DNA of 64,000 nucleotides from Bacillus sp. AFS055030 (GTDB lineage: Bacteria > Bacillota > Bacilli > Bacillales > Bacillaceae_G), in contig NZ_NUGT01000031.1 in the NCBI RefSeq assembly GCF_002574545.1, positions 1 to 64,000 on the forward strand, in the 5' to 3' direction. Numbering within the stretch: the stretch's first letter is position 1; every line of letters starts with the position of its first letter. This document shows, in pieces, positions 35,881 through 64,000 of this stretch. The notes under the pieces are model-generated. The model saw only the letters and a list, made by a program, of their open reading frames with translations, did not search any database and was not told the origin of the DNA. The translations under genes were made by a program, and so were the position numbers.

Positions 35881-36837
35881 TTAAGAAGAGCCACCAACAG
35901 TTAATGAAACTTCTATTTTCTCATTCTCAACAAATTCATTCGATATAAGTTTCAATAAATTTTTAGCCGCTAATGAACCCCAATCAAATGTAGAATAAGA
36001 TACTGTACTTAATCTTGGAGAAACATATTTTGATAATTCAATATTATCAAAACCTACAATAAAAACATCTTTACCAATTTTATATTGAGTATCTTGTAGA
36101 TAGTTATAGATCCCTATTGCCATTTCATCATTTAAACAAAAAATAGCACTTGGTTCATTATAGTTAGAAAAGATTTGTTGTGCTGCTAATTCGCCTGAAT
36201 CTTTCATGAAATTTCCAATGATCTCAATTAACTCAACATCAGGATAATTTGTTAATTCTTCTCGAACACCCTCTATACGTTTTCTTGAATCGTATGATCC
36301 ATCTGGCCCAGTTACGACATATACTTTTTTCACATCATTCGTAAGAAGCTCTTTAATCGCTAATTTAGCTCCGTGATTATTATCTAAAAGAACTCCTTTA
36401 ATATTGTTGTGCTGTAATTCTCGATCCATCACTACCATTTTATAATTTTTTTTAGCGTAATCTAAAAGTTCTTCATCTGAAAAAGCCTGATCTAAAATTA
36501 TTCCACCATCAATTACTTTTTCTAGTAAAAGGCGATGGGATTGCACGCCAGAACAAGCAATTAATTCATACCCCTTGTCGTTTAAAGCTTGTCTCATTCC
36601 TCTTAACAGTGGTCCGTAAAAATACCCGCCGTAATCAGCTAAAAATACCCCAATAATTTTTGTTTCTTTAACCTTTAACATTCTAGCAGCAGCATTAGGA
36701 ACATAACCTAATCTATTAGCAATCTTCATAATTCTGCTTCGAGTTTCTTCCGTTACTTTTGGGCTGCCATTCAATGCATATGACACTGTTGAAATGGAAA
36801 CTCCAGCTTCTTTGGCAATATCTTTTATTCCCGCCAT
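35881..36837 (-). CDS. LacI-family transcriptional regulator of the beta-glucan locus
   Basis: 318 aa. LacI-type HTH at residues 2-50 (IKDIAKEAGVSISTVSYALN, NGSPKVTEETR, the hinge helix LGYVPNAAARMLK) and a periplasmic-binding-like effector domain (IIGVFLADYGGYFYGPLLRG, FIVGFDNIELSKYVSPRLST). ATG 36837 is 8 nt behind GGAGG; the ATG at 36852 is part of that RBS. It is the last gene of the locus and likely binds GAAACGTTTC sites at 50655, 55811, 57291 and 57333, a palindrome with the central CG typical of LacI operators. The inducer is probably a sophorooligosaccharide (inference). Confidence 0.9.
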   Translation of the reverse strand: MAGIKDIAKEAGVSISTVSYALNGSPKVTEETRSRIMKIANRLGYVPNAAARMLKVKETKIIGVFLADYGGYFYGPLLRGMRQALNDKGYELIACSGVQSHRLLLEKVIDGGIILDQAFSDEELLDYAKKNYKMVVMDRELQHNNIKGVLLDNNHGAKLAIKELLTNDVKKVYVVTGPDGSYDSRKRIEGVREELTNYPDVELIEIIGNFMKDSGELAAQQIFSNYNEPSAIFCLNDEMAIGIYNYLQDTQYKIGKDVFIVGFDNIELSKYVSPRLSTVSYSTFDWGSLAAKNLLKLISNEFVENEKIEVSLTVGGSS

Positions 36838-37004
36838 CCCTTTTTCCTCCATTCTATGTATACCAAAAAGCCATTTTTTTTATCTTTTCTTTTTTTACGT
36901 TTAGATTAAATTTAGATGATTCATAATACCAATATTAATTTTATCAAAATTAAGGATTATTTTCCTACATTTTTTTATACCTTTGTACCTAAGAAGAATT
37001 ATTT

Positions 37005-37060: not shown

Positions 37061-38290
37061 TTAAGAAGGTATTAAGTCTTTACGTTTCCAGCCTAAAAGT
37101 TCTGCACCTTTTTTTACATAATCGTTTTTCATGTATAAATCCCAAATTAATCCAGTTTCAAAGTTTTCAATCATAAGCAATGTAGCACCTTTATCAATTC
37201 CAATTACTCGATCTGACACCCAGTTTGATGAAACATCTCGATTATATGAATCTAGAAAACCATACTTGCTCCATAATTCAGGTACTTTTTCATAGAAATA
37301 ATTTAATGCTTCAATTGATTCTTTTGGTGTAAAGACAATCGACCCAGCTGCTGCCGCGGGTGCAATCGTACCATCATTTATAAACTGATCACAATTTGGA
37401 TGAAACGGTCCAGCTCCATATGCTTTATAACCGTGTGGTCCATCGCATGCAGTTAACCCCCATGCGTGTTCACTTTCTGCAAAAGTTTTAAAGCCCTGTG
37501 CATTATCATTACAATACTTCTTTGCTGCTAATGAAGCTTTCACGGAGTTTTCATGCCAATTAATTCCGTCTTCATCCACAATATTCATAAAATTAAACCA
37601 TGCATGTGAATATTGGTGAGTAAACAGCGCCCCTCCTGGTGAATGATAAAATTCATACTCATCATATTTTACTAAATCTCTTCTAAATCCATTGTAAATT
37701 TCCTTTGGAACCGGGTGAGTAGGAGATGCAACGCCAAAAATGTACTGCATCAACTGCTCTGCATACATATCCCAGTGACCAAATCCACCTGTTTCAGGAT
37801 GATACCCCATAAAATACATATTATTTTTTTCATCATAATACTTTTGCCAATTCACACGTTGAAAGATTTTTTCAAAAACTTCTTTAATTTCACCACCGAA
37901 ATATTCTGCAGATGTTACAGCACCATTTAGAAATAGAGATGTATCTATAATTGATGCACAATCATAAAATGCTTCAAATTTTTTTGCTGTTTCCATATGA
38001 AGGAAATGATAGAAAAAGCCTTCTGATTCTTCTGCATTATTTAAAAAGGTGTTTAATGTACCTAACGTTCTTTCATATCCTTCTTCGTATGTAATCCATT
38101 TTCTTTCAATCCCGATAATGATGGCACTCAAGCCAAATCCCACTGAGGCAATACTCGCCATATTTTTATTTGATCCTGCTGTATTATCACGTATTAAACC
38201 ATATCCTGGACTATTTTTATCTGCGTTTGCTTCATTCCAGAAAAAATCAAAACAACCTTTAGCTTCTAAATCTAAAATTCTCTTATCCAT
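37061..38290 (-). CDS. GH144-type endo-beta-1,2-glucanase-like enzyme
   Basis: 409 aa. The whole protein fits the Glycoamylase-like Pfam family (PF10091) whose characterised members define GH144, endo-beta-1,2-glucanase: CFDFFWNEANADKNSPGYGL, IASVGFGLSAIIIGIERKWI, GFFYHFLHMETAKK, GFGHWDMYAEQLMQYIFG and SPGGALFTHQYSHAWFNF. (alpha/alpha)6 barrel. There is no signal peptide, so it is predicted to be cytosolic, unlike secreted members. It follows a permease pair in the operon (58 bp gap) with GAGGTG 6 nt before ATG 38290. Substrate specificity is inferred from family plus the GH94 and GH3 neighbours. Confidence 0.82.
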   Translation of the reverse strand: MDKRILDLEAKGCFDFFWNEANADKNSPGYGLIRDNTAGSNKNMASIASVGFGLSAIIIGIERKWITYEEGYERTLGTLNTFLNNAEESEGFFYHFLHMETAKKFEAFYDCASIIDTSLFLNGAVTSAEYFGGEIKEVFEKIFQRVNWQKYYDEKNNMYFMGYHPETGGFGHWDMYAEQLMQYIFGVASPTHPVPKEIYNGFRRDLVKYDEYEFYHSPGGALFTHQYSHAWFNFMNIVDEDGINWHENSVKASLAAKKYCNDNAQGFKTFAESEHAWGLTACDGPHGYKAYGAGPFHPNCDQFINDGTIAPAAAAGSIVFTPKESIEALNYFYEKVPELWSKYGFLDSYNRDVSSNWVSDRVIGIDKGATLLMIENFETGLIWDLYMKNDYVKKGAELLGWKRKDLIPS

Positions 38291-38348: not shown

Positions 38349-39290
38349 TTATTCGCCAGTAATACCTGAACGATCGACACTTTCAACAAACCATCTTTGC
38401 GTAATGAAGTAAATAACTAGTAACGGAATGATTGTTAGTAAAGTTCCCGCTAGTTCAATTCCTTCATTAATACTTGTCCCACTAGCACCGCCTTGTGCAG
38501 GAAATAATTTACTATAAGTTGCTACGAACTTTTGTAATTGAAGCGGTAGGGTTGATAATTTTTCGCCAAAATAGATTGATGCTAAGTAAGTTTCGTTCCA
38601 ATACCATACAAGTGAAAATAAAAACGAAATAATATATCCAGCAGATGCCATTGGAATAGCAATTTTAAAGAAAATTTTAAAATGGCCTGCTCCATCAAGT
38701 TGTGCAGCTTCTTCCAGTGATTTTGGAATCGATCGAAAGATTTGATAAAAAATTAAAATGAAAATCGCACTATTTAAACCCTGACCAAATATTGCTGGCA
38801 GTACATAGGCTGTGATGCTATCCAAAATATGAATTTTATTAAACAAAATATATCTTGGAATAACAGTAACCTGCGGCGGAATGACAAAGGTTGCTAGCAC
38901 TAAAATAAATAGAATGTTTTTACCTTTAAATTGAAATCTTGCAAATCCATAGCCAATGATTGAAGCAACAAATGCTTGTAAAATTGACGGTAATACAGTT
39001 ACGTAAATGGTTTGAAGTAATATTGGCCAATAATCTAGTACATCAAATGCTCGTTTATAATTGTCTGTATAAAGCTTTGTTGGAATCCAATTTACAAGAG
39101 AATTTAGTAGATCGTTTATATCTTTAAAGCTATAAGATAACATATATAATATAGGGTATAAGAATACAAAACCGATTCCGATCAATAATGCATACATTAG
39201 GATCTTTATAAGTAATCCATCATTACCCTTCATACCAAATAAGATTCTTCTTATTTTTGTAGAAATATCCTTTTTAATTCCTTGATTCAC
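38349..39290 (-). CDS. Carbohydrate ABC transporter permease (MalG type)
   Basis: 313 aa, six predicted helices with the MalG-type EAA loop EEAAQLDGAGHFKIFFKIAIP near residue 210 that docks on the ATPase. N-terminal 20 residues are cytosolic and basic. It starts with GTG 39290 behind AGGGGGG and lies 16 bp after the partner MalF-type gene. It ends the second permease pair of the locus. No ATPase gene is nearby. Substrate inferred as beta-1,2-gluco-oligosaccharide. Confidence 0.9.
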   Translation of the reverse strand: MNQGIKKDISTKIRRILFGMKGNDGLLIKILMYALLIGIGFVFLYPILYMLSYSFKDINDLLNSLVNWIPTKLYTDNYKRAFDVLDYWPILLQTIYVTVLPSILQAFVASIIGYGFARFQFKGKNILFILVLATFVIPPQVTVIPRYILFNKIHILDSITAYVLPAIFGQGLNSAIFILIFYQIFRSIPKSLEEAAQLDGAGHFKIFFKIAIPMASAGYIISFLFSLVWYWNETYLASIYFGEKLSTLPLQLQKFVATYSKLFPAQGGASGTSINEGIELAGTLLTIIPLLVIYFITQRWFVESVDRSGITGE

Positions 39291-39306: not shown

Positions 39307-40170
39307 TTATTTTTTTCTTTCTAAGAAAACAACCAACCAAACCATAATTAATAGAATAATGGTGATGATCACAAAATATATCCAAGAAAGTGCAGAAGCG
39401 TAGCCAAATCCAGTTTCAATTTTAAACATATTTTTTTTAATATGTTCTATAATTGGATTCATTGTGGAAATTGAGTACATAACTGTCGTATAAATAATGT
39501 TTACTAAAATCATAGGGAATAAGGTTGGTAAAGTAATTTTCCAAAAAATCTCCCATGTAGAAGCACCATCAATTTTTGCAGCCTCGTAAATTTGATTATC
39601 AACTTTTTGAAGAGCTGCAATAAAAATTAAAATTTGTACGCCAGTAAACCAAAGTAATAACACCATATTATCCATAATGTATAAAAATAAATTACTAAAA
39701 AAACCAGGATTTTCAGCAGCTAATTTATAAAATACATACTGTTTTATTTCAGGTATTGCAGTTACTCCTTGCTCTGTTAACTTATTTAAAACAGGTCCAC
39801 TACTAATAATGACAGGCAAGAAAAAAATCGTCCGAAAGAATCCACGAAATTTAATCGGTTGATTTAAAAGTATTGCAATTATTAATGCAATAATAACAAT
39901 GATCGGAACTGAGACTACTACATGCCCTGCAAAGTCTCCTATTTCTTTTAAGAACTCTACATCGGTCGTAAATGCATCCTGGTAATTTGCCCACTTTGCA
40001 AATTTTGTTTTTATACCGTTAGTTGTAATAATGACATTAAAAAAACTTAAATAGAGTGAGTACAAGATCGGATATGCTGTAAAAACTGCAAATCCAATCA
40101 CCCAAGGCAAAATAAAAATGTACCCTACCGTCTTTTTACTGTTTACTAATCTTGTAAAAATGTTATTCAT
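39307..40170 (-). CDS. Carbohydrate ABC transporter permease (MalF type)
   Basis: 287 aa with six predicted helices: VGYIFILPWVIGFAVFTAYP, then the EAA loop YEAAKIDGASTWEIFWKITL near residue 197. Starts at ATG 40170 with GGAGAAA upstream, overlapping the last 8 bp of the DUF5696-type gene, so it is translationally coupled to it. Pairs with the MalG-type gene that follows. The coupling ties this transporter to the DUF5696 protein. Confidence 0.9.
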   Translation of the reverse strand: MNNIFTRLVNSKKTVGYIFILPWVIGFAVFTAYPILYSLYLSFFNVIITTNGIKTKFAKWANYQDAFTTDVEFLKEIGDFAGHVVVSVPIIVIIALIIAILLNQPIKFRGFFRTIFFLPVIISSGPVLNKLTEQGVTAIPEIKQYVFYKLAAENPGFFSNLFLYIMDNMVLLLWFTGVQILIFIAALQKVDNQIYEAAKIDGASTWEIFWKITLPTLFPMILVNIIYTTVMYSISTMNPIIEHIKKNMFKIETGFGYASALSWIYFVIITIILLIMVWLVVFLERKK

Positions 40171-42427
40171 TGCTAGTTTCTCCTTTCATCACAGCAAAGT
40201 CTTTTGCTGCAACTGTAAGGCTACCTGATTTAAAAGGCATATTTGTATAGTTAATTATAAAACTCGAATTATTTGAATAAGTTACTTTTACAACACCTTC
40301 GCTTAGAACTTCTCTACTCATGATTGATTCGTTTTTTACTAACTTCAAACTTTTTTGAATAACACCATACTGATTAACGATTTCACTTTTCCAAGCTTTA
40401 TATTCAGAAGTATAAAGATCTCTAGAAGGCGTTTCAGAAAGTAAATACGAATTATTTCCAGTTAAGTAGAAAGATGGATAAGCTCCATAATCTATTAATC
40501 TTAAGAGCTCTTCCTTTTGATTTGACCAAAAATTGGAAAATGGCGCATAGTAATCAACATATCCTTTCAATACGATTTGAAGGAATGGTACAGTATCTGA
40601 AACATACAAATAATTAGATGAGCCCATTGGAATATCCAAATATTTATCTGTCATTCCCCAAGCATATACATTTGGTTGATATAGTGCCGTTTTATCAACA
40701 TCCCCGCTATTTAGTATGCTTAGAACTTTGTTATGCGATTGTTTACTTTCTTCTCTTGATGCTGTATGGCGATCATTAAATGCAGAATATAGCTCGCTTC
40801 CATTTGAGTCCACAGCTAGATTTTCCATTGAATATTTCTTGTATTCCTTTTTATCTTTCTTTGCATAGCTAATTGCTTTTTCAGGATGTAAATAATAGTA
40901 GTTGTATCCATTCTCTTCATCCAAAATTGCTTTTGTATTTACTTGTTTAGCTATATTCCCACCACCAAAGAGACTTGAAGACCCTTCATATGCCTTTACA
41001 TAATCTGTATAAAAGTATAATGGTACATCCTTTTTCTTTAGCTCTTTTACAGTTTCATTTACTTCGCCTTTACTACCTAACTTTCGTTCAAATGGAAATT
41101 TTTTCGGAAAAGTTCCAGTTAGTCCATTTTTATTCCATCCTTTATAGACGATAAAGAAATCATCTACACCATTTCTAACCAATTCATTTGCATATTTTGG
41201 AAGATTACTGATTGGAGTCATTGATACGACTGAATCCCAAAATAATCCTTCCTTTTTTTCTCCACCTAAAAATTCTAAGCGCAGCATCGGAGAGTCATTT
41301 GTTTTTTTCTTCAAAACTCCATTATTTACAAGATAGGATTGGTAGCTTTTGGCCATTCCCACATAGTTCGCATGATCATTTTCTAGTATTCTATAATGCA
41401 ATTTAATATCAAAATTGTTCCGTTTTTTCTGAAATAAATCCAATGCTTTTCCGCTTTTTTGATTTTTGCTTGTTGGTTGCTTATAAGCATAACGATAGGT
41501 GAAGTTGGATGTCACCCAATTAAACTCTGTAGATAATCCAGCTTTATATGCATCAATTCTCGCATAATTATCTCCATCTTCAATGATTCCTAATAGAGCA
41601 TTTTGATGTTCTCCATGAACAACACCAAATACAGGTATGCTTGCTCTATAACTTTCATTCGTGTCTTCTGATTGGGTTGCAAAAGAGATGCCCTTATCCT
41701 CTCCATACACTGTAGCACTATAAGGAGACTCCATCTTCACACCATTTTTTTCATATCGTATTAACGCTCCAGAACCATCTGGTATAAATAAATAACCTGG
41801 AATTTCATTCTCTTTTGAGGCTCCGAAAAAAGGATATACATTTGCCGATACAAGTTTGACTTTACCCATCTCGATAATACTTGCTTCAGGTATACTAACA
41901 ATGACCTCATCTTTGGCTAGCTCGACTGAAAGTTTCATTTTTATTTTTGCTTGTCCAAACGTTATATTTGCATCAAATCCGTTAGCTTTCTTTTTAAGAT
42001 TTATTTTGGCAGAATGTGTTGTAATACTTTCTTTTCTTAATTTCCCTTGTATATTTAAATATTCAATTGTAATTGCTGATTCCACGAATTGTTCCCATGT
42101 ACTATTTAACTTATATTTTTCCATGTGATCTACTGTTGAGCTCCAAATGTACCCGTTGGATTTATTCTTAACTTTAATTGCTAGAGATTCACTATTAACA
42201 TATAACTCTAGTTTTTTGTTTTCTGCTATTTTTTCAAAACCAGCTAAAGAAGAATTTTGACTTTTAATTTTATTTTTATGTACTTCCATTTGTGTAAACT
42301 GATTGGAGGCATACTTTTGCGTATTTTTGTTGACCGATGTAATAAGATCATTATTTTTTTCAGCATATACATTTGGTTGTATTGATAATAATAACAATGA
42401 ACTAGACAGTATAATTTTCTTATACAC
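40163..42427 (-). CDS. Exported DUF5696-type protein, glycosidase-like
   Basis: 754 aa. Signal peptide at residues 1-22 (KKIILSSSLLLLSIQPNVYA). Residues about 65-300 are a beta-rich domain resembling the N-terminal sandwiches of GH31/GH97/GH101 enzymes (ELYVNSESLAIKVKNKSNGY, PGYLFIPDGSGALIRY). Residues about 385-700 look like a TIM-type barrel (GVDDFFIVYKGWNKNG, VPLYFYTDYVKAYEG, LLRLIDYGAYPSFYLTGNNS). I recognise it as the DUF5696 group, found next to ABC transporter genes in Paenibacillus-like bacteria; no activity is established to my knowledge. GTG 42427 behind AGGAGGTAA overlaps the upstream gene by 8 bp. It may be the extracellular hydrolase or a surface glycan-binding partner of the transporter. 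Confidence 0.7.
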   Translation of the reverse strand: MYKKIILSSSLLLLSIQPNVYAEKNNDLITSVNKNTQKYASNQFTQMEVHKNKIKSQNSSLAGFEKIAENKKLELYVNSESLAIKVKNKSNGYIWSSTVDHMEKYKLNSTWEQFVESAITIEYLNIQGKLRKESITTHSAKINLKKKANGFDANITFGQAKIKMKLSVELAKDEVIVSIPEASIIEMGKVKLVSANVYPFFGASKENEIPGYLFIPDGSGALIRYEKNGVKMESPYSATVYGEDKGISFATQSEDTNESYRASIPVFGVVHGEHQNALLGIIEDGDNYARIDAYKAGLSTEFNWVTSNFTYRYAYKQPTSKNQKSGKALDLFQKKRNNFDIKLHYRILENDHANYVGMAKSYQSYLVNNGVLKKKTNDSPMLRLEFLGGEKKEGLFWDSVVSMTPISNLPKYANELVRNGVDDFFIVYKGWNKNGLTGTFPKKFPFERKLGSKGEVNETVKELKKKDVPLYFYTDYVKAYEGSSSLFGGGNIAKQVNTKAILDEENGYNYYYLHPEKAISYAKKDKKEYKKYSMENLAVDSNGSELYSAFNDRHTASREESKQSHNKVLSILNSGDVDKTALYQPNVYAWGMTDKYLDIPMGSSNYLYVSDTVPFLQIVLKGYVDYYAPFSNFWSNQKEELLRLIDYGAYPSFYLTGNNSYLLSETPSRDLYTSEYKAWKSEIVNQYGVIQKSLKLVKNESIMSREVLSEGVVKVTYSNNSSFIINYTNMPFKSGSLTVAAKDFAVMKGETSNE

Positions 42428-44444
42428 GAACCATTACCTCCTGGATTACAGAATAAACAAAATCAATTACTTGATTTAACAAAATATAAAGAACAAATAA
42501 TACAACAACTGTGATGACACAACTAAATAAAGTTAGTAATATATTTTTTATCGTCTCACCAATTGTAAAATTATGAATTTCCTTGATCATAATAAACAAG
42601 ATTAGTAGAGACCATCCAACCATTAACTGAGTTGAAAACGTAAAAAGAAACGATTCATTTATTGTAATAACTCTTGATAAAAGTGTTACTGGAACACTAA
42701 ATACTAAGTATGGAGCTAATGAATAAATTGTTCCGATATAAACATTTTTGAAACTACCTTCACCATCATTAATTGTACTAATTAAATAGTTCATAATGAC
42801 AAATAGCCCCAATGCTCCAAAAAAGATCGAAATGATTAAAAATAAACTAAACCGCTCTAGTAGTTCCGAGTTAAAAATGAATCCAGTAAAGTTTAGTGAA
42901 AGCAAATACTCGATGAAAAATAGTACATAAAAAATAGTCGCAGATAAGAAAGATGCTTTCTTTAATTTTTTAATCTCATAAAATGTGTCGATCGGATGTC
43001 TAAATAGTTTAAATATAAGTAATAACTCACTTACTAGTTTAATATTTTTAAATCGATTAACTTTTTCCCTTATTCCGTGAAAATAATCTTTTTTTCGATT
43101 TATATACCGAACTAAGTAATAAATGAAAATGACTAAAATGATAAAAGATAGGGCCTTTCCAGTATGTTTCTCCAATAGATTATGGCGAATTTCCCAAAAT
43201 GACTGTGAATATCCTTCTCGATTGTTAGCTAATTCAAATTCATTTAGTGAATGATTATATTCTTGTTGTTTATAATAAGCTTGTCCCATAGCTATATGTG
43301 CTAAGGAAAATGAACAATTTAATTGTAGAACTTCTTGCCAGTACTTTTGACTTTTTACATATAACCCTTCTTCAAAATATGCTAAACCTTCATGTAATTT
43401 ATTTGTAAATTCGGTTGGTTCAAAAATATGAATGATCCCTTGTTCAGCATCTGCAATATATAGATTCCCTTTTTTATCAACGCCAATACTTGATGGTTGT
43501 TTAAAAATCCCTTGTCGCTGAGCATTTGATTCTTTGCTACCAAATTTAAATAACAAATTTCCAGTGCTATCGTATTCATATACATAGCCATTAGAACTTA
43601 ACACGTAAAAATTCCCTTGGTTTCCTACAACGATATCGATTGCAGAATTAGATGAATAGACACCATCCTGAAGCATATTAGTACCTGCTACATTTAGCTT
43701 TTTAATTGCTTCACTTTCTAATCCATTTGTAACCGTATATACAATTCCCCTCTGATCAATATCGATACCAGTAGAAGCAATTGGTACATTCATAAAACCT
43801 TTTCTTTGCCCTGTTTTGGACATCACGTAATTTTTAAACGTTTGGAACAAGGATGTGGACGCTCTATTTGCTCCAAAATATCCAAGAAACTCTCCATCTT
43901 TATTAAGCTGAATAATCCCGTTGGCAGCTCCTTCACCGATAATATACATATTGCCTCTTCCATCCACAGATAGTTTAAGAGGTTTAAAAGGCTGTCCTTT
44001 TCCAAATAAAGGAGAATTAGGTTTCCCATACTCAGCAAGTAATTTTCCATCTAAAGAAAAACAATATACTGTTTCTTTTGCTACATCAGCTACAAAAAGT
44101 TTTTGATCCTTGTCAACTGAAATTCCGACAGGCTTCTCTAAAATACCTTTCCCAATTGTTTTAATGAATTTTCCAAATTGGTCGAATATAATAATCTCTT
44201 TACTTCCTGAATCGGCAACATAGATATTGTTAGTTTGATCAATAAATACATTCTCGGGTTTTATCATTTGATCATTCGAAAGGATTCCAACAGCCTCATA
44301 CGCAGTTTGTGTCTTAATTTCTTCTCCATCAATTGAGAGAGTATATGTTTTATAGGCATCCGCTGCATAAGTATTTGCTGGAAAGATCATGATCATCAAT
44401 ATCATAATTAATAGTAATTTAAAATGATTTTTGTTTTTAGTCAT
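42420..44444 (-). CDS. NHL-propeller/TPR protein with a Yip1-like membrane domain
   Basis: 674 aa. Signal peptide (to NTYA-AD, residue 28). Residues about 45-345 form an NHL-type propeller with repeated blades (MIKPENVFIDQTNNIYVADS, LEKPVGISVDKDQKLFVADV, FKQPSSIGVDKKGNLYIADA). Residues about 355-425 look like TPR repeats (AYYKQQEYNHSLNEFELAN). One TM helix near 440 is followed by a cytosolic linker and a C-terminal Yip1-like domain with about five helices (residues 510-670). So a large external sensor/scaffold is tied to a membrane domain. It is embedded between permease genes and coupled to the DUF5696 gene. Possible roles are sensing or organising the uptake complex; none is established. 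Confidence 0.75.
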   Translation of the reverse strand: MTKNKNHFKLLLIMILMIMIFPANTYAADAYKTYTLSIDGEEIKTQTAYEAVGILSNDQMIKPENVFIDQTNNIYVADSGSKEIIIFDQFGKFIKTIGKGILEKPVGISVDKDQKLFVADVAKETVYCFSLDGKLLAEYGKPNSPLFGKGQPFKPLKLSVDGRGNMYIIGEGAANGIIQLNKDGEFLGYFGANRASTSLFQTFKNYVMSKTGQRKGFMNVPIASTGIDIDQRGIVYTVTNGLESEAIKKLNVAGTNMLQDGVYSSNSAIDIVVGNQGNFYVLSSNGYVYEYDSTGNLLFKFGSKESNAQRQGIFKQPSSIGVDKKGNLYIADAEQGIIHIFEPTEFTNKLHEGLAYFEEGLYVKSQKYWQEVLQLNCSFSLAHIAMGQAYYKQQEYNHSLNEFELANNREGYSQSFWEIRHNLLEKHTGKALSFIILVIFIYYLVRYINRKKDYFHGIREKVNRFKNIKLVSELLLIFKLFRHPIDTFYEIKKLKKASFLSATIFYVLFFIEYLLSLNFTGFIFNSELLERFSLFLIISIFFGALGLFVIMNYLISTINDGEGSFKNVYIGTIYSLAPYLVFSVPVTLLSRVITINESFLFTFSTQLMVGWSLLILFIMIKEIHNFTIGETIKNILLTLFSCVITVVVLFVLYILLNQVIDFVYSVIQEVMVRV

Positions 44445-44465: not shown

Positions 44466-45341
44466 TTACTTAATACCTGAATGAGCCATCGTATCCATTA
44501 CTTGCTTTTGCATAAATATAAAGATAATTAAGTTCGGAATAAACATAATTAATGAAGCTGCTGCTGTTAACCCAGTTCCGGCAACTGTATTCCCACTACC
44601 AGTAGTCAATGTGCTCATATAAAAAGCAAATGTTTTAATTCCTTCATTGTTAACATATAAATCTGACGTTTCAATGTTATTCCACACTACTTGAAAAGCT
44701 AATATTCCAACAGTGGCAATTGCAGGCTTAATATTTGGAATAATGATTCTGAAAAATATTTGAAAATCAGATGCTCCATCCATTCTAGCTGCTTCAAGCA
44801 ATTCATTTGGAATTTGATCAATAAATTGCTTAACAAGAAACAATCCTACAGGAAGCGCTAGTAAAGGTAGAATATGAACCGTAAAAGTATTAATTAAGTG
44901 TAATTTTTCGATAATGATATATCGAGGAATCGCAACGGCTGCAGGTACAAACATTAAAGCAAGTGTATTGACCTCAAATATTGTATTTTTTAACTTGAAT
45001 TGTTTCTTTGACAAAGCATATCCTGCCATCGTACTAATTAAGATGATTAAAACGACAACGACAATTGTTATTACAATACTATTAAATAAATATCTTGTAA
45101 TTGGCGTACCACCTACATTTCCACTCTCAAATAAATTAAGGAAGTTTTGTATTGTAGGCTTTTGTACAAAAAATCGTGGTGGGAATGCAAATAATTCATC
45201 AATTGGTTTAAAGGCATGATTAAATATGTAAACAATGGGAGATCCCATAAAAATTGCCATTGGAATTAAAATGAGATAGAACTTTAATTGACTTTTATGA
45301 AACTTTTTAGGGTTAATTTGTGTCCCTTGAAAAGAAGCCAT
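44466..45341 (-). CDS. Carbohydrate ABC transporter permease (MalG type)
   Basis: 291 aa, six predicted helices. EAA loop LLEAARMDGASDFQIFFRII near residue 195. N-terminal soluble stretch SFQGTQINPKKFHKS precedes the first helix. ATG 45341 follows AAGGAGGG and lies 28 bp after the MalF-type partner. First permease pair of the locus; located directly downstream of the fused solute-binding protein. Confidence 0.92.
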   Translation of the reverse strand: MASFQGTQINPKKFHKSQLKFYLILIPMAIFMGSPIVYIFNHAFKPIDELFAFPPRFFVQKPTIQNFLNLFESGNVGGTPITRYLFNSIVITIVVVVLIILISTMAGYALSKKQFKLKNTIFEVNTLALMFVPAAVAIPRYIIIEKLHLINTFTVHILPLLALPVGLFLVKQFIDQIPNELLEAARMDGASDFQIFFRIIIPNIKPAIATVGILAFQVVWNNIETSDLYVNNEGIKTFAFYMSTLTTGSGNTVAGTGLTAAASLIMFIPNLIIFIFMQKQVMDTMAHSGIK

Positions 45342-45369: not shown

Positions 45370-46260
45370 TTAATCTTTCTCCTCAAATAGTTTTCTTGCT
45401 ACTTTTGAAAACAAGTAAACTACTAATAATAAAACGACAGAAATTGCTGCTGCATAACCCATTTCATATCGAATAAATCCATAATCATCAATATGATTGA
45501 CCATTAATTGACCTGCGTTTTGAGGTGTAGGATTTGTTCCTGAAAGTGCCACACCAATAGCCCCCGCCTGAAATGTATTTACTACTGCCATTACAGCACC
45601 AAATAGCATTTGAGGTTTCATAGATGGGATCGTAATGTAGATTATTTCTTGGAAACGATTTTTGATCCCATCAATATATCCAGCCTCATAAATTTCTGGA
45701 TTAATATTCAATATACCTGATAACATTGCTAAAAATCCTACACCCATACTTGTCCATAACGTTACAATAACCATGATTGTCATTAAGTATTCTGGAGATT
45801 GTAACCATTGTATTGGTTCGGTAATTAAATTTAAGTTGAGTAATAAACCATTTAAATATCCTGATGCATCTCCACTAAAAATGACTGTCCACAAAACGGT
45901 CATAGCAACTCCAGCTGTCATTGATGGTGAATATAGAATTAAAGCCAAAACTGTTCTTGGTTTATGTGGAATTTGGGCTAGCATCCAGGCCATTATAAAC
46001 GATAAAATATATCCCCCTGGGCCAACCAGTAGTGAAAACTTTAGTGTATTTGGCACAACATTTTGCATAAAAACTGCGTCTTGCGTTAATAAATTTACAT
46101 AATTCTTTAATCCAATAAACTTAGGAAATTCAATCGAGTTAAAATAAGTAAACGATAAACCAATTGCGATTAAAACGGGCACTATAATAAAAATTAAAAA
46201 TAGTAGAATATAAGGGCCAAGAAAGACCCACGCATTATAATCATTTTTTTTCTTATTCAT
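45370..46260 (-). CDS. Carbohydrate ABC transporter permease (MalF type)
   Basis: 296 aa with six predicted helices ([20 protein letters not shown] at the N-terminus). The EAA loop is divergent: [20 protein letters not shown] (Gly and Ile in place of the usual Ala and Ala), still with the central Gly. Its ATG overlaps the last 8 bp of the fused solute-binding protein gene. The divergent loop is a hint that it couples to a particular shared ATPase, but this is speculation. Confidence 0.9.
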
Positions 46261-49231
46261 TATTGGTACCTACCCATTTTTTGACTGTTTCTAATCTTGG
46301 AAGAATATATGGTTTGACAACTTTACCATCATTCATATAACCAAACTCCTCCATTTTTCTCCTAATTTCTCGATCCACAATTATAGTTGAATCATCGATG
46401 GAAGCACGTAGATTTGCACCATTAAACACAACTTTATTCCAAGTATTACTAATTTCACGTTCAATCATATACGCACCTGGTGTTTTTGGAACTTCCATTA
46501 AATATTTCCACTGCTCTAGAATGACCTTTTTATGATCTTCTGGAAGAGGAGAATTTTTAAAAGCTTCCAAATTGGCAGAATTCCACATATATTCTGTTCC
46601 ATAAATCGTTTGGAGGTTCGTTGCAAAATCGGTTTGAGTCTTAGTAGACATCCACCATTTTAATAGTTTCCAAGATTGCTCTTGTTTTTTACTTTTTTCG
46701 AACATCATCGCAGATTGCGCTGAACCAGTCGCCCACCTTGATACTGATCCATCTTTTTGCTCTACACCTGGATATAAGGCAATATCCCAAGAACCAGCGA
46801 TTTCTGGTGCTGCTGATGTTAATTTTATATAAGTCTCAAAATTAGATATTCCAATTGGTATCGATCCATATCGGAATGAATTATAAAAATTTGGGACCTG
46901 TAATGGTAAGCTATACATTGTGTATAAATCCGTCATCAATTTCATACCTTCTATTGATTCCTCTGAATCAATTGCTGTACTCATGCTATCTTTTGAATAA
47001 AGATCTCCACCGTGTTGATAAATAAAAGGTGCAGTAAACATGAATGCTTTATTAGCAGAGGTGCCCGATAATGGAACGAAGAAATTCAACCCATATCTTT
47101 GTAGTTCTGGTAGCATTTCTTTCACATCAGTCCAAGTATTTGGAATCGGAATATGTAGTTTATTTAATAGATCCTTGCGATAAAACAGAACGTAAAAATC
47201 CTGAGTTTCTGGTAATGCATATACTTTGTTATTAAGCATCATTGGCATAAATGCACCTGGAGAGAATTTTTGAATATATTCTTTAAAATCCTTGAATTTA
47301 CTAATATCAGCTGCAGCTCCACGCATTGCTAGTTCATATGGTGTGCCAACGCTAATTCCTAAGGCAACGTCTGGTTGTTGATTCCCCGCATTGGCAAGAA
47401 TTAATTTTTGCTCGTTCGGCATGACGGAAAACTTTACTTTGATCCCTGTTTCTTTCGTAAAAGTACTATCTGCCATATTCTGCATCAATTCGACATATTG
47501 TTGATTTCGATTTACCCAAACCTCAACCGTATCTTTGTCTACTGAAGTTGTGTCATATGTTTTATTTGTAAAAGAATAATAGAATTCTTTTACTTGGCTT
47601 GTTATCTTATTTACAAATCCTGTAGTAGCTTTAGGAAGCTTAGAATTACCATGCACATAAATTCGATCAATCAATAATGGTTGTGTTTGGAGCGAACTTT
47701 GAATATTCCCTAATATTTGTGCCGCTGAGTTTGACCCATCTGAAAGATCTGTTAACCGCTTTGGAATTTTATCAGGATCATTTTTTAGTTTATTTAATTT
47801 TGAAATAATTAATGTTAAATCAACCTCTTCTAATGATTTTTCATCGGTGTCATTTCCGTAAATTTTACGCAATTTGTTTTTATTTTCGACTAATTTTTCA
47901 GTCCAAGAAGTTAATTGTTCCTTTATATCAGGCAAGTATTCGGTAATTTTCCAATCACGATTTCGATCAGTCGAGTTACCTGTCAATTTTTTTATAGATA
48001 AACTTAAATCATTTATTTCATCCATTATTTCTTTTAAATTATGAATAATTGGTTCAACTGGTGATGCATCAGCAACTAAAGTAATCTCATGTTCACCCTT
48101 ATTTAAATAAAAGTAATACGGATTGTCTTTTTCGTCTGACAACGTTTCGTTGTGCCACTTTTCTGAAAAATCAAACTTGTAATGTTCTACTTCTTTAAAT
48201 GGTACTTTGCCATCTATTAGCACGCTTCTAAACACAGGAGAACCAGATTTATCATTTTGTAACATTTTGAAAGAAAGAACATAATTTCCCGCATTTTTCA
48301 CGTTTACTTTCCAAGTAACACTTTCTCCTGCTGATTCTCCACCATATAAAGTATTTAGTAATAATTCGTTACTCTTATATGGGATGACATCAGGGCTTTT
48401 AATTGAAGTTGGTCGGATTCTTGAAGTATTCTTAATAAACGGGCGTTCTGCTTCGATTGTGATTAAATCAGATTGCACTTTTTGGTTAAAATATTTTTCT
48501 TTATACTCTTTATATGAAAATAACTTTTTTGGTGATTTCACATAAACTTTCCCTAATAGCATATTTCCACTTGTATTTGTTAATGTAATTATATTTTTTC
48601 CCTTTTTCAAATGAAATCGTAATGGTTCTGGTTGTAAATTACTTGGGTCTTGAGCGAGTGCATGATTCCATTCCTTAATTTGAATTTGTTCTGGGATCAG
48701 TTCATTTCCATAGTTATTTTTTTCGAATTTTTTACTTTTATCTTTCCAATTAATTGGTGCTACTATTCTACGACTCTCATAAAACTGAAATTGTCCGTTT
48801 ATTTTAATAGATAGTTCTGGGTTTAAAATTTCTTTACTTAAACCATAATAATCGAACCCTATTTCATATAGTGCATCTTCAGGAATATTTACTTCGATAT
48901 CAATTGATTTATTATTAGAAAAGTTTATAACGCTTTCATTATAGTCCTTACTATTATTTGCAGATACGTATTCTTTTTTATCTACATTTTTAAATAAATT
49001 AGGAGAAACAGCACTTTCAAATGAAGTGCTGTTTTTAACTTGTTTCTCCCACTCTTTTAGGACTTGATGAAATTGTTTTTCTACTAAAGTCTGTTCACTT
49101 GTTTTCAGATCAGTAGCAGAATTTGTCATTTTAGTTCCTTCTGCACGAACACCTGAGACACTTAAAATATTGATACTACTAACTAATAAAACAATTGATA
49201 ACCATTTACTTAGTTTAGATACCAATGCCAT
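46253..49231 (-). CDS. Solute-binding protein fused to carbohydrate-binding-like domains
   Basis: 992 aa. Signal peptide ([20 protein letters not shown], cleavage after VRA). Residues about 80-250 and 260-415 are beta-sandwich segments like CBM domains ([40 protein letters not shown]), followed by a helical linker. From about residue 565 to the end is a family 1 extracellular solute-binding protein ([40 protein letters not shown]). There is no lipobox. The ATG at 49231 with GGAAGG is preferred; the frame is open to an adjoining TTG at 49255. It lies 24 bp after a lipoprotein SBP gene and overlaps the first permease gene. A dual-function binding protein for the transporter is likely. Confidence 0.85.
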
Positions 49232-49255
49232 CGATCCTTCCAAGCTATTACGCAA

Positions 49256-50611
49256 TTATTTTTTCATTGCATTAACTGCATTTTCGTATTGTTGTTGAGC
49301 TAAATCATTTAATTGCTTTGCATAGTCTTGATAATTAACTGATCCATATATGCTATCGTGTAATAAATCAGCTACTTTTGCATTATCATTTTCACCAATT
49401 TTAATTCCTGTAGTTGCTTCCCATCGTGACGCGGCATAACCCGGTACGATTTTAAATGGATCAATCATTGCTTTATCTAAATTCTCATATGCTTTTTGAA
49501 TACCTGGTACACCAACAATATCCCAATATTTTGCTAACACTTCCGAATCGGTAGAAATTGGTAAGGTATTAATTTCAATACCACTATTCGTACTTAGATC
49601 CATTCTTTTTAGGAAGCCATCTTTACCAAATGACATAAACTTGGCAAAGTCATATGCTTCTTTTTTATATTTTGTACTTTTTGCAACACCTAAGTAGTCA
49701 AGTGCCATTGCCGTTCTTCCGCCTGGGATTCCAATAAAATCCCAATCAAAATCTATATTTTTTGCAAAATCACTATTCATCCAAGTGCCACTCCAGAAAT
49801 ATGCAATTTGTCCTGCTTTAAATGCAGCTCCTATGTCATCGCCACTTAATTTATCTTTTTGTTCCTTATCTAAACCTTCATATGCGTATCCATTTGTTCC
49901 AAGGTCTTTTGCTGTTTTTACACCTTCAAACATTTCAGGTGTATCTAAGTGATATTTACCGCTTCCATATGTAAACCAATTTACATTTTCATTTTTCGCT
50001 CCTGAATACCAATCAACAAAATCCGTCGTTGAATTAATTCCTAGAATCCCTTTACCTAAATCCGTTGTATCTTTTATACCTTTAATAAAATCGGGTAAAG
50101 TAACTCCATGTTCAGGTGCATCAATGTTTGCATTATTAAAAATATCTTTGTTTACGTAGTATCCCATAAAATGTTGAGCAAATGGGATTGCATAAGTTTT
50201 GTCACTATTTTTCGTTGACTCTTTAACAGATTCTGGTAAACTAGTGAAGTCTTTATCTTCGTTAACTAAGTCTGAAAGATCAAGTAACCAATCATTCGTT
50301 AATCCTGATGGAATATCAGTTAACATAAACACATCTGGTAATTTCCCAGCACTAGCAGCTGTTGATAATGATCCTTTCCAATCATCGTTCGTAATACTTT
50401 CATCTATTTTGATATCGATGTTTTTGTGTGTTTTTTCGTATGCTTGAATCATTAAACGTTCTAAATTTTTTTCAGACTCTGTGCCAAGATTCCAGTTAGC
50501 ATAATTAATGACGATTTTTTTATCAGCGGTAGTTGAAGTAGATTCTTTGTTACAAGCAGCCATCGTTAATGCGACTGATGCTGCGGCGGCAATTTTCAGA
50601 ATTTTTTTCAT
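49256..50611 (-). CDS. Solute-binding lipoprotein of a carbohydrate ABC transporter (second copy)
   Basis: 451 aa. Lipobox TMAAC (Cys about residue 19) with a KKILKIAAAASVAL leader. Family 1 SBP: VINYANWNLGTESEKNLERL, GKLPDVFMLTDIPSGL, WDFIGIPGGRTAMALDYLGV. It is clearly a paralogue of the SBP at 55889-57253 (the same ANWN...EKNLER and DFIGIPGGR blocks). It has its own dual-controlled promoter and leads the operon of fused SBP, permeases, NHL-Yip1 and DUF5696 genes. Confidence 0.93.
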   Translation of the reverse strand: MKKILKIAAAASVALTMAACNKESTSTTADKKIVINYANWNLGTESEKNLERLMIQAYEKTHKNIDIKIDESITNDDWKGSLSTAASAGKLPDVFMLTDIPSGLTNDWLLDLSDLVNEDKDFTSLPESVKESTKNSDKTYAIPFAQHFMGYYVNKDIFNNANIDAPEHGVTLPDFIKGIKDTTDLGKGILGINSTTDFVDWYSGAKNENVNWFTYGSGKYHLDTPEMFEGVKTAKDLGTNGYAYEGLDKEQKDKLSGDDIGAAFKAGQIAYFWSGTWMNSDFAKNIDFDWDFIGIPGGRTAMALDYLGVAKSTKYKKEAYDFAKFMSFGKDGFLKRMDLSTNSGIEINTLPISTDSEVLAKYWDIVGVPGIQKAYENLDKAMIDPFKIVPGYAASRWEATTGIKIGENDNAKVADLLHDSIYGSVNYQDYAKQLNDLAQQQYENAVNAMKK

Positions 50612-50764: not shown

Positions 50765-50818
50765 ATAAATAAAACTAAACAACCACTCGAGACTTACAGC
50801 TCAAGTGGTTGTTTAGTT
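50765..50818 (-). terminator. Terminator after the second GH35 gene
   Basis: Stem of 18 bp (AACTAAACAACCACT..GA / TC..AGTGGTTGTTTAGTT) with one mismatch, followed by TTATTTATTA on the minus strand. It separates the GH35 gene from the next promoter. Confidence 0.85.
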
Positions 50819-53187
50819 TAAATATGATTAAGAAATTTTATTTCTGCTACTTTTTCTCGAGTGTTTATTTTTACGATGTATTGATCTAAATCAATTTGCT
50901 CTACTTTAATAGTATTATTTTCTTGCGGTATCCATTTTGTCGATTTAAATAAAAATTCTTCTTCTTGCATAATTTTCACACTTACATTTATTTCATTTTT
51001 TTCATGTTCAACTTCAAAGATTTCACCAGTGCCATACTCAATAAAAATACCTTCCGTTAATTTTACTTGAATCGGAAGAATTAGTCCGCCTTTACGGGGA
51101 ATCGTAATCTTTTTACCATTTAATAGCTTCTTACCTTTGTATGAAATAGTTGTTTCCTTTTCATATTCATCGAAATTATGTATGAATATGAATTTTGAAT
51201 CTTTTTGTGAAATACGAGCAAAAGCATCAATTGCTTCAATATTTTCATCAAAAACAAAATCACTATAAATCTCGAGTTTATTTGTTATTTTTTTGATCGC
51301 TTCTAACTGATAATCGAATTGTATTTCCATCCCTAAACCAATGACAACTACTTTACCGTCACCAATATTTTTTTCAAATGCAACAACATCTTTATCATCA
51401 TCTTCAGTCCACACAAACGCACCCTCAGCATGATTAAATGTTTGCATCATAGCTGCAATGTTTTCCATATTTTCAACAATAGCAAAACCATGTTTAATTT
51501 CCTTTTGTTCTACTTCAATAAAATCTTTCAATATCGTACATGGTGTACATTTCATTGTTTCAGTCGGTAATATAGGGAAAATGATCAGTTTCCCACCATT
51601 TTTAATATAGTTTACTAGTTTTTGTTGGATTTTAGCATCCATCCACTTTGTTGAGAACACCCATAAAGATGAGATTTCTTTGACATCAATCTCTTCATTT
51701 TCTAGTAGATTATAGCCGTCATAAGCTATATTGTTTATCGTAAGGCTTTTTGCTATTCCATTAAATAAAAACGCTTCTCTCCATTGCTCTATTTCTTTTA
51801 TCATTCCTTCTGTGTACTGATTATGAAATTCTGTCATAAAATAATCTGGATAAAATGCTAGATAGGTATTATATTCAGGTTTTGTTTTTAATAGTTCATC
51901 ATTATATACTTGGAACATCTTGCCTAAATGTTGGATTGTCTTATAGTGAGCTCTCTCTTTCCCCATAGCTGAAAGAGGTGCCTGCCATTCATGTCTTTTT
52001 CCAAATAATCCAATGTCTTCGTAATTTTCACCACTGACAAACATGTAATAATTTACTGCATTCATACCGTTTGCAAAACTTAATCTAGTAATTAAATCAA
52101 ACGCTGAAGGTTGTAATCTTGGTTTTTCTGTAATACAACCACCTTGAAACTCCGCTGAAAATAAAGGTTGATCTTTCGACTGAACTGATCTAGTAAATGC
52201 ATTTGCTACGATAATATCCGTATAATTATCGTATTCGAGATTCCCTATATAATAATCTCCAGCAATAATAACATCTTCTATTTTTGTCGTTTCAATTAAT
52301 TGTGAAATGCCAATTGGATATTTCATTCCTCTTTTTAAAATCCCACCAACTGTATCAAATCCATGTATATTTACAACGAATGGAACCATTATGTGATTTT
52401 TTACAGCATATTCTTTTAATGTTTCTATATATGTACGATAATGCTCACGCATAAATAAGCTATATTCATTTTGTAGAGCAAACGAGTACTGTTCTTCAAC
52501 CTTTTTCATCTTTTTTTGAACAAATTCTTCTATACTTGATATTTCATCAGTAAATATGTTTTGGAATTCTTCGAGACTATATTTTTGTTTCAAATACTCT
52601 TTAAAATAGTTTAAGGTCACATCATTAAAGTCACCTTGATTTGTTACCCAGTGAAACATACCTACTTCATTATCAAGCTGGAACATGATCACAGGACCAC
52701 CATTTTTAACTTGATATGGGGCAATGATTTCACATACATGATTGTACCAGTTTTCTGTTTTCTCTAAATAAATCGGGTGTAAATAACTAACTAAGCGTAC
52801 CGGATGACTTTCCCCTTTTTCATTTTTTGCTAATGCTTCGTCATAGTGATCAATAAACCACGTTGGTACACCGTGATCAACAATTTCTGCCATTACGTAT
52901 GGTCCTGGTCGAACTAGACAAAACATATCTTCATCTTTAATCATTTGAAGAAAAGTTTTCAAATCTTTTTCAGGCCTTGTTTTTCCAATTAAATCAATTT
53001 CTCCCTCAATTCTTTCATGAAACTGCCAAGGAATATATGTACTAACCATATTTGCTCCAGCAGCCTTAATTTGTTTAATTCGATTCTTCCATTCGCTTTG
53101 TGGTAGTCGAAAATAATGCAATTCTCCACCAAATAAAATGACTTCTTTTCCATTAATAATGACTTTTTCATCTTTTATTTGTATCAT
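50818..53187 (-). CDS. GH35-family glycoside hydrolase (second copy)
   Basis: 789 aa, no signal peptide. GH35 barrel: ELHYFRLPQSEWKNRIKQIK, ANMVSTYIPWQFHE, VRPGPYVMAEIVDHGVPTW, acid/base Glu in QLDNEVG (Glu174) and candidate nucleophile in FSAEFQGG (Glu346). The C-terminal 350 residues are sandwich domains. Classical GH35 are beta-galactosidases, but one characterised GH35 from Ignavibacterium acts as a beta-1,2-glucosyltransferase on sophorooligosaccharides; the neighbourhood favours a beta-1,2-gluco activity here (inference). It is a paralogue of the enzyme encoded upstream. RBS GGAG lies rather far (12 nt) before ATG 53187. Confidence 0.82.
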   Translation of the reverse strand: MIQIKDEKVIINGKEVILFGGELHYFRLPQSEWKNRIKQIKAAGANMVSTYIPWQFHERIEGEIDLIGKTRPEKDLKTFLQMIKDEDMFCLVRPGPYVMAEIVDHGVPTWFIDHYDEALAKNEKGESHPVRLVSYLHPIYLEKTENWYNHVCEIIAPYQVKNGGPVIMFQLDNEVGMFHWVTNQGDFNDVTLNYFKEYLKQKYSLEEFQNIFTDEISSIEEFVQKKMKKVEEQYSFALQNEYSLFMREHYRTYIETLKEYAVKNHIMVPFVVNIHGFDTVGGILKRGMKYPIGISQLIETTKIEDVIIAGDYYIGNLEYDNYTDIIVANAFTRSVQSKDQPLFSAEFQGGCITEKPRLQPSAFDLITRLSFANGMNAVNYYMFVSGENYEDIGLFGKRHEWQAPLSAMGKERAHYKTIQHLGKMFQVYNDELLKTKPEYNTYLAFYPDYFMTEFHNQYTEGMIKEIEQWREAFLFNGIAKSLTINNIAYDGYNLLENEEIDVKEISSLWVFSTKWMDAKIQQKLVNYIKNGGKLIIFPILPTETMKCTPCTILKDFIEVEQKEIKHGFAIVENMENIAAMMQTFNHAEGAFVWTEDDDKDVVAFEKNIGDGKVVVIGLGMEIQFDYQLEAIKKITNKLEIYSDFVFDENIEAIDAFARISQKDSKFIFIHNFDEYEKETTISYKGKKLLNGKKITIPRKGGLILPIQVKLTEGIFIEYGTGEIFEVEHEKNEINVSVKIMQEEEFLFKSTKWIPQENNTIKVEQIDLDQYIVKINTREKVAEIKFLNHI

Positions 53188-63268: not shown

Positions 63269-64000
63269 TTATTTAATCAGTTTAAATTTTTCGGTTAAAA
63301 CATTTTCACTATTTGTACCGACATACAGCTCAAATAGACCGGAATCACTTTTAAATTCTAAATTAGCATGATAGTATCGTAATTGTTCTTCTTTTAAAGT
63401 AAACGTAACTTTACATGTTTCACCTGGATCTAATTTTACTTTCTTGAAGTCTTTTAATTCTTTTACTGGTCGCACAACATCCCCAGAAAGATCTCGAACA
63501 TAAAGTTGCACAATTTCTTCCCCTGTATAATTTCCAGTATTCTTAATATTGATTGAAATTTCTAATGGTTTCTCCATTTCTATGACATCAGTAGATAAAT
63601 TTAAATCACTATAGGTAAAGTTTGTATAACTTAAACCAAAACCAAATGGTAAAAGCGGTTCATTAGGAATATCCAAATACTTAGAAACATAATGATCAGG
63701 ACTAAACTCATTAAAAGGGCGTCCTGTATTAAATGAATTGTAATATACCGGAATCTGACCAACTGAAAATGGGAATGACATCGTCAATTTTCCAGAAGGA
63801 TTCACATCTCCGAAAAGAATATTTGAAACTGCTGTAGCTCCTTCAGTTCCAGGAAACCATGCTTCTAAGACAGCATCCGCTTCATCTAACACACCATATA
63901 AATCTAGTGGACGCCCATTAAATAAAACAATTACCATTGGTTTATTTAATTTTTTAATATGCGATATTAATTCTAACTGAGCATTTGGTAATCGAATATC
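63269..64000 (-). CDS. GH3 beta-glucosidase, partial (cut by right edge)
   Basis: About 243 C-terminal residues are visible and the frame stays open to the window end. Seen are LPNAQLELISHIKKLNKPMV and VLFNGRPLDL (GH3 C-terminal domain), DAVLEAWFPGTEGATAVSNI with the FGDVNPSGKLTMSFP motif, and a terminal fibronectin-III-like domain (LEISINIKNTGNYTGEEIVQ, RPVKELKDFKKV). This fits Listeria Lin1840-type enzymes that hydrolyse sophorose and short beta-1,2-glucans. Upstream of the GH94 gene in one transcript; the promoter lies outside the window. Confidence 0.9.
   Translation of the reverse strand, partial: DIRLPNAQLELISHIKKLNKPMVIVLFNGRPLDLYGVLDEADAVLEAWFPGTEGATAVSNILFGDVNPSGKLTMSFPFSVGQIPVYYNSFNTGRPFNEFSPDHYVSKYLDIPNEPLLPFGFGLSYTNFTYSDLNLSTDVIEMEKPLEISINIKNTGNYTGEEIVQLYVRDLSGDVVRPVKELKDFKKVKLDPGETCKVTFTLKEEQLRYYHANLEFKSDSGLFELYVGTNSENVLTEKFKLIK

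Follow-up and report, generated by a model that had tools for sequence, protein, structure and literature searches.

Linkage of NHL-Yip1 and DUF5696 genes within a two-permease-pair module in Bacillus sp. AFS055030 and its relatives

The minus strand of a 64,000-nucleotide stretch of Bacillus sp. AFS055030 DNA (contig NZ_NUGT01000031.1; the window) carries two neighbouring genes, one for a protein that combines an NHL propeller, TPR-like helices and a Yip1 membrane domain (NHL-Yip1) and one for a DUF5696 protein, with a MalF-MalG pair of sugar permease genes on either side. We found that the NHL/Yip1 and DUF5696 genes are closely linked in the genomes surveyed, and that they recur in a conserved order together with both permease pairs and a binding protein of about 1000 aa. 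The whole module may be a composite ATP-binding cassette (ABC) importer for long glycan chains in which NHL-Yip1 serves as scaffold, a proposal to which we give an even chance of being right.

Linkage and conserved order of the module genes

Linkage was scored in an order sample of 299 genomes and a phylum sample of 348 genomes, counting DUF5696 and the Yip1 part as paired when they lay within 5 kb of each other and removing low-scoring partial PF18952 matches beforehand. PF18952 had a match at E 0.001 in 58 genomes of the order sample, 44 of them above the cut-off, leaving 57 full-length DUF5696 places in 43 genomes; the TPR-Yip1 part of the window protein matched at 1e-8 in 43 of the 299. 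NHL/Yip1 was found within 5 kb of all 57 full-length places, and DUF5696 within 5 kb of 68 of the 69 Yip1 pieces, the remaining piece (G081:C109) being found paired once all candidates were scored. For the phylum sample, in which up to 3 PF18952 candidates were scored per genome, a match was present in 42 of the 348 genomes, and 33 of these contributed 51 places that were full-length or close to it; 47 of the 51 were paired, as were 67 of 93 Yip1 pieces, and the four unpaired DUF5696 places were in three genomes that had more candidates than the 3 scored in each. The genomes with DUF5696 and those with Yip1 were the same sets in both samples (43 and 43; 33 and 33). In seven genomes selected for their many hits, where every candidate was scored, 60/68 DUF5696 and 60/64 NHL/Yip1 places were paired, and of the eight DUF5696 places left without a partner five begin within 520 bases of a contig start (rows dropped before these counts: 4/72, 17/81, with split genes counted once and one fragment, and 2/39). 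An earlier note on this DNA had called for such a genome-neighbourhood survey, and the two genes, rather than occurring mostly apart, proved to be linked.

Gene order was scored by six-frame search of 120 loci, comprising 40 stretches of 11-20 kb picked by us from hit lists and 80 named loci, the best 80 of 249 relatives obtained with the close clade of the window as query. The called DUF5696 open reading frames (ORFs) numbered 118 including that of the window, with five pairs that are each one locus, so that at least five loci are counted twice. NHL/Yip1 was the nearest recognised gene upstream of DUF5696 in 120/120 loci, which together with the pairing counts rules out chance proximity, and a MalF-MalG pair lay downstream in 113. 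The full order, namely the 1000-aa binding protein, MalF1, MalG1, NHL(-)Yip1, DUF5696, MalF2 and MalG2, was present in 102 loci; among the other 18, 11 were truncated by a contig or stretch end, and three (L044, L048 and L050) had the same parts with the binding protein-MalF-MalG set downstream instead. The module was found in Bacillota, Chloroflexota and Mycoplasmatota, and plasmid records of Paenibacillus cellulosilyticus and Butyrivibrio fibrisolvens showed the same order with the independent annotations 'YIP1 family protein' and 'DUF5696 domain-containing protein'.

Several of these genes overlap. In the window the NHL-Yip1 gene (44444-42420) and the DUF5696 gene (42427-40163) have 8 nt in common (GTGTATAA), as do the DUF5696 gene and the MalF-type gene at 40170-39307 (ATGAATAA), so that the two 8-bp overlaps claimed in the earlier note are exact to the base; a third, which it lacked, joins the 1000-aa binding protein (ending at 46253) to MalF1 (starting at 46260). 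Across the family, overlaps were found at 92 of 96 NHL-Yip1/DUF5696 junctions, 80 of 104 DUF5696/MalF2 junctions (4 nt being the commonest length) and 80 of 100 junctions between the large binding protein and MalF1. The NHL-Yip1/DUF5696 overlap goes beyond chance, because the same length of 8 nt recurs at 66 of the 96 junctions; where Yip1 is a separate gene, just 5 of 17 Yip1/DUF5696 junctions overlap.

The permeases were compared in a maximum-likelihood tree of 115 rows, 96 of them MalG proteins (from 206 ORFs, near copies removed) and 19 other permeases of the window genome. Upstream MalG1 proteins formed a clade of 43 rows (100/99), two of them from rearranged loci, and downstream MalG2 proteins one of 52 rows (100/99), with the 19 other permeases and an unrelated permease of L139 outside both. 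Two module-tied permease lineages that occur together are therefore indicated by the MalG tree. Gene content and the tree thus agree on two module-specific permease pairs, a count of genes and not of heterodimers per system. An ordinary sugar operon with a single permease pair is ruled out by the second conserved pair, seen in the tree and in the order of 102/120 loci. We withdrew the statement that MalG1 and MalG2 are not sisters, the rows that branch between them being placed on forks of just 86/92 and 86/59. By tree path, the MalG proteins nearest to those of the window were from Listeria newyorkensis (L101), whose locus has the full module with a 1,2-beta-oligoglucan phosphorylase (SOGP) and a GH144 gene. 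One UgpC-type ATPase gene above the cut-off was found in the window genome, located outside the window, and in P. cellulosilyticus such a gene lies just upstream of the module.

Anatomy of the module proteins

Pfam recognised NHL (41.5 bits) and Yip1 (PF04893; 43.2 bits, cut-off 28.6) in the window protein, both above their cut-offs, with TPR models matching below cut-off only; NHL and Yip1 were both found at E 0.001 in 51/51 members of family set A4, and in part of the family they are two adjacent genes instead of one. An AlphaFold2 model (mean pLDDT 85) placed a propeller first, then TPR-like helices and then the membrane domain. The propeller was nearest to TRIM-family NHL domains, and the 50 fold matches listed were propeller proteins. 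Hydrophobic segments were localised at residues 431-449, 499-517, 532-550, 600-618 and 635-653, and the stretch 450-498 is basic (14 K/R, 5 D/E); because of this loop and these segments, the protein fits a predicted topology with the propeller outside and the 450-498 loop inside. NHL-Yip1 and DUF5696 each have a hydrophobic N-terminus. Hydrophobic N-termini, domain matches and charge count agree with what had been proposed earlier, that both proteins are exported and that one of them joins an external propeller to a multi-helix membrane domain.

An outside propeller followed by TPR-like helices and a membrane domain could relay a signal, and one plasmid module adjoins a histidine kinase and a response regulator, as would suit NHL-Yip1 and DUF5696 if they did not guide a chain but acted as sensor or gate, signalling the presence of substrate or regulating transport. 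However, the Pfam scan found no signalling domain in either protein and a LacI regulator is already encoded at the window locus, so we hold this explanation to be improbable.

The DUF5696 protein matched PF18952 with 606 bits against a cut-off of 25.6, and its residues 64-754 have the fold of GH129 NagBb (5wzn) and the GH129-like DagB (5opq); a profile built from the close set gave weaker PDB matches than one from a diverse set. Conservation of acidic residues was counted in 117 ORFs of 690-1000 aa, reduced to 87 after near-copy removal. The column (437) aligned with NagBb D330, a catalytic Asp, holds T in the window and is acidic in 6/87 members. Asp435 is also named as catalytic in NagBb (PMC5698469). 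That residue falls outside the profile alignment; column 540, guessed for it from spacing, is acidic in 53/87. Among 30 divergent members, 540 and 611 are both acidic in 1, and 540 or 549 is acidic together with 611 in 14. The window protein retains two other barrel acids. We read DUF5696 as a putative glycan-holding relative of glycosidases, because the D330 column is acidic in so few members; a flat verdict that the protein is dead was softened after these counts. The Asp of 'LHLDGW' was dropped as counterpart of the NagBb nucleophile, since by residue count D330 lies eight positions downstream of it, and the H and D residues altered in 5wzq look like another site. Fringe matches such as G000:C66 are, we guess, GH13 enzymes.

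DUF5696 could instead trim the substrate as an active glycosidase at the cell surface, held near the permeases by NHL-Yip1. The fold and the partly kept acids are to be set against the loss of the D330 column and the rarity of the paired acids in the divergent members. Moreover, the clans with this fold are mostly alpha-glycosidases, whereas the cargo at the window would be beta-linked. We rate an active enzyme as rather unlikely. Where the earlier note suggested a surface hydrolase plus a sensor or scaffold, the scaffold is thus retained as a conjecture, and hydrolase and sensor are disfavoured by the acid counts and by the Pfam scan, respectively.

A profile of 31 large binding proteins gave a C-terminal solute-binding protein (SBP) domain nearest to Lin1841 (5ysb, 9.8e-31), a middle like cycloisomaltooligosaccharide glucanotransferase and another stretch like designed coiled coils; Pfam found CBM_35 in 4/31. 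A lipobox-like motif was seen in 4/104 large binding proteins (first 45 aa), where wrongly placed starts could conceal some, vs 76/81 short SBPs (first 60 aa).

The beta-1,2-glucan locus and its probable cargo

The module of the window lies among genes for carbohydrate-active enzymes. Related genes extend from position 35881 to past the window end, and on the minus strand they read GH3 fragment, SOGP, second SBP, two GH35, lipoprotein-like SBP, 1000-aa binding protein, MalF1, MalG1, NHL-TPR-Yip1, DUF5696, MalF2, MalG2, GH144-type enzyme and LacI regulator. The features are, by position:

35881..36852, minus: LacI-type regulator (PF00356, 67.4 bits)
37061..38290, minus: GH144-type beta-1,2-glucanase relative, no signal peptide seen (PF10091, 241.8 bits; 8xul 9.7e-57, 5gzh 3.7e-39)
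38349..39290, minus: MalG2-type permease of the second pair (PF00528, 65.7 bits; MalG2 clade)
39307..40170, minus: MalF2-type permease of the second pair (PF00528, 36.7 bits; conserved order)
40163..42427, minus: DUF5696 protein, 754 aa, GTG start, export signal, GH129-like fold (PF18952)
42420..44444, minus: NHL propeller, TPR-like helices and Yip1 membrane domain, 674 aa, ATG start, export signal (Pfam, AlphaFold2, hydrophobic segments)
44466..45341, minus: MalG1-type permease of the first pair (PF00528, 65.4 bits; MalG1 clade)
45370..46260, minus: MalF1-type permease of the first pair (PF00528, 42.2 bits)
46253..49255, minus: 1000-aa binding protein with carbohydrate-module-like N-terminus, coiled-coil-like stretch and C-terminal SBP_bac_1, no lipobox seen
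49256..50611, minus: ordinary lipoprotein-like SBP (PF01547, 95.7 bits; nearest PDB 22hh, 1.6e-86)
50818..53187, minus: GH35-type enzyme, no signal peptide seen (PF01301, 160.9 bits)
53352..55763, minus: GH35-type enzyme, nearest PDB chain a beta-1,2-glucosyltransferase (7vkx, 4.9e-60)
55889..57253, minus: second ordinary lipoprotein-like SBP (PF01547, 79.3 bits; lipobox by eye in the N-terminus)
57559-58392: transglutaminase gene between SOGP and second SBP (PF20085)
58857-59750, plus: metallo-beta-lactamase-fold gene between SOGP and second SBP
59897..63238, minus: 1,2-beta-oligoglucan phosphorylase relative (SOGP, GH94; SOGP_N, SOGP_2nd; 5h3z, 1036.9 bits)
63269..63937, minus: C-terminal part of a GH3 glycosidase (PF01915 from profile position 114, PF14310), the gene start probably lying beyond the window end

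The SBP_bac_1 binding protein and the MalF/MalG-type permeases (PF00528) are parts of a CUT1-type carbohydrate ABC importer. The locus is not a single operon throughout, because the plus-strand gene at 58857-59750 intervenes; with the transglutaminase gene it breaks up the beta-1,2-glucan locus. For the SBP at 49256-50611, the nearest PDB entries (22hh-22hl) are titled just 'Extracellular solute-binding protein family 1', and a close relative has thus been solved structurally.

By homology, the SOGP, GH144 and beta-1,2-active GH35 relatives make up a beta-1,2-glucan utilisation set, and the cargo at the window is probably beta-1,2-glucan; the GH144 enzyme, in which no signal peptide was seen, would cut it inside the cell. 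PF10091, the family to which the search for beta-1,2-glucanases was confined, gave one match in the window genome, this same signal-less GH144 gene. Over the loci, with a crude hydrophobicity rule applied to N-termini as signal test, a hydrophobic start was seen in 0/61 GH35, 0/24 SOGP and 21/64 GH144 ORFs; a signal-less GH144 was present in 42 of the 50 loci carrying GH144. In 13 of these 50, which come from L073-L152 and other loci, one signal-like copy stands with one without; the 13 include many Chloroflexota loci between L124 and L150.

Elsewhere the module has other neighbours. Among 20 picked by us and identified by Pfam, one (L049) belonged to a peptidase family and 19 to carbohydrate-active or sugar-metabolism families: GH30, GH106, apiosidase, GH31, melibiase, GH26 (twice), GH9, arabinofuranosidase, pullulanase-like, FGGY kinase, L-arabinose isomerase, GH43 (three times), GH10, GH2 (twice) and GH3. 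By eye, GH10, GH26 (L036), GH9, GH30 and pullulanase-like neighbours had no hydrophobic start. Several LLM flavin-dependent oxidoreductases adjoin the module on the P. cellulosilyticus plasmid (L168), which has its own UgpC ATPase gene, so the cargo need not always be a glycan.

Proposed mechanism and comparison with known systems

In a composite importer, NHL-Yip1 would lie in the membrane, its propeller outside, and would join the two permease pairs to the outside proteins. DUF5696, placed on this scaffold, would hold or thread the glycan chain in its glycosidase-derived groove, and the large binding protein, mostly without lipid anchor, would pass the chain on, with uptake driven by a shared UgpC/MsmX-type ATPase. 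At the window, beta-1,2-glucan, linear or perhaps cyclic, would enter as chains long enough to require the intracellular GH144, and the SOGP, GH3 and GH35 enzymes would complete their breakdown.

Several observations weigh against this proposal. The module is known here from its genes, and co-inheritance is no proof of a complex. The named loci, being close relatives of the window, are biased to beta-1,2-glucan loci, and the other stretches were chosen by us; the MalG tree takes its comparators from one genome and its deep forks are weak. No DUF5696 was found within 5 kb of 26/93 Yip1 pieces in the phylum sample, which we put down to the limit of 3 scored candidates per genome. Part of the cleavage can take place outside the cell, because 21/64 GH144 ORFs have a signal-like N-terminus and GH26 (L041), GH43 (L046) and GH2-like (L120) neighbours look exported by eye.

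The upstream set of large binding protein, MalF1 and MalG1 is also not constant: it was missing within the 20-kb stretch in L038-L040, and upstream in L042, whose stretch stops after DUF5696. The seven genomes chosen for many hits had 20, 11, 10, 10, 8, 5 and 4 DUF5696 places (fragments included) and 10, 6, 4, 4, 4, 5 and 4 large binding proteins, which were outnumbered in five of the seven (e.g. 4 vs 10). NHL/Yip1 lay within 8 kb of 30/37 large binding proteins, and a large binding protein within 8 kb of just 30/64 NHL/Yip1 places; the smallest recurring unit is therefore NHL/Yip1, DUF5696, MalF2 and MalG2. Because of these loci and the scarcity of large binding proteins, the two permease pairs need not be one complex. 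They could be two independent ABC importers in one operon, with NHL-Yip1 and DUF5696 as assembly or folding helpers, and EAA-like loops, seen by eye in all four permeases, would suit this, as would the absence of a nearby first pair in L038-L040 and the outnumbered binding proteins. However, both MalG types are module-specific, and NHL/Yip1 and DUF5696 stand between the two pairs in 102/120 loci; we regard two separate importers as unlikely. Five of the genomes (G338, G360, G380, G433 and G462), of 2-3 Mb, have 8 to 20 DUF5696 places, fragments included, and just 4 to 10 large binding proteins; in passing, we compare this to a SusCD-like radiation.

To our knowledge, little has been described of how Gram-positive bacteria take up polymers that exceed the size range of ordinary sugar importers. 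The module, a constant group of seven or eight genes that includes both permease pairs and two proteins lacking an assigned role, together with intracellular enzymes, gives a genetic handle on bulk polysaccharide import. If the composite importer is real, it would assign functions to DUF5696 and to NHL-Yip1 proteins of bacteria and could mark glycan-foraging loci in genomes. A literature search with thin coverage of subscription papers, which does not imply absence from print, found no publication on DUF5696; judged by titles and abstract starts, nothing found on Yip1 with solute-binding, NHL or permease dealt with the module. The parts seen of PMC8861115, PMC12369401 and PMC11842490 attribute beta-1,2-glucooligosaccharides to an SBP or ABC transporter, with no mention of DUF5696 or NHL-Yip1, and PMC12102758 does not mention 'transporter'.

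The beta-1,2-glucan cluster lin1839-1841 of Listeria innocua has SOGP, GH3 and the Sopn-binding ABC-transporter SBP Lin1841 in the accounts consulted (PMC12369401, PMC8861115), and the window has relatives of the two enzymes and, in the large binding proteins, an SBP domain nearest to Lin1841 by profile. Unlike that cluster, the window adds two permease pairs, NHL-Yip1, DUF5696, the 1000-aa binding protein and GH144, the first four not being named for L. innocua in the parts seen. The GH144/GH35/GH94 cluster of Ignavibacterium album, for which TonB-dependent uptake before an ABC step has been speculated (PMC8861115), shares with the window GH144, a GH35 beta-1,2-glucosyltransferase relative, GH94 and an SBP; the same account, in the part seen, mentions neither DUF5696 nor Yip1. 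Compared with GH129 NagBb and DagB, DUF5696 does not keep the D330 column and is tied to an ABC importer.

Like the Sphingomonas alginate importer AlgS-AlgM1M2-AlgQ, the module would import polymer for cleavage within the cell; the Sphingomonas system has one permease pair and is not known to include DUF5696 or NHL-Yip1. A bolder conjecture, which we offer tentatively and think somewhat doubtful, is that Gram-positive bacteria (and Chloroflexota) have in the module their counterpart of SusCD, a single large complex with four permease subunits on an NHL-Yip1 scaffold; a retired glycosidase, DUF5696, would thread intact polysaccharides to the pore, with endo-enzymes inside, and the system would have radiated to many glycans, some genomes having 8 to 20 copies. 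No TonB-dependent porin (SusC) or SusD domain was found among the ten window proteins scanned with Pfam. As in the SusC/SusD systems of Bacteroidota, many paralogous copies lie beside varied glycan enzymes (in five of the seven genomes here); unlike SusC/SusD, the module is built on ABC permeases of the cytoplasmic membrane.

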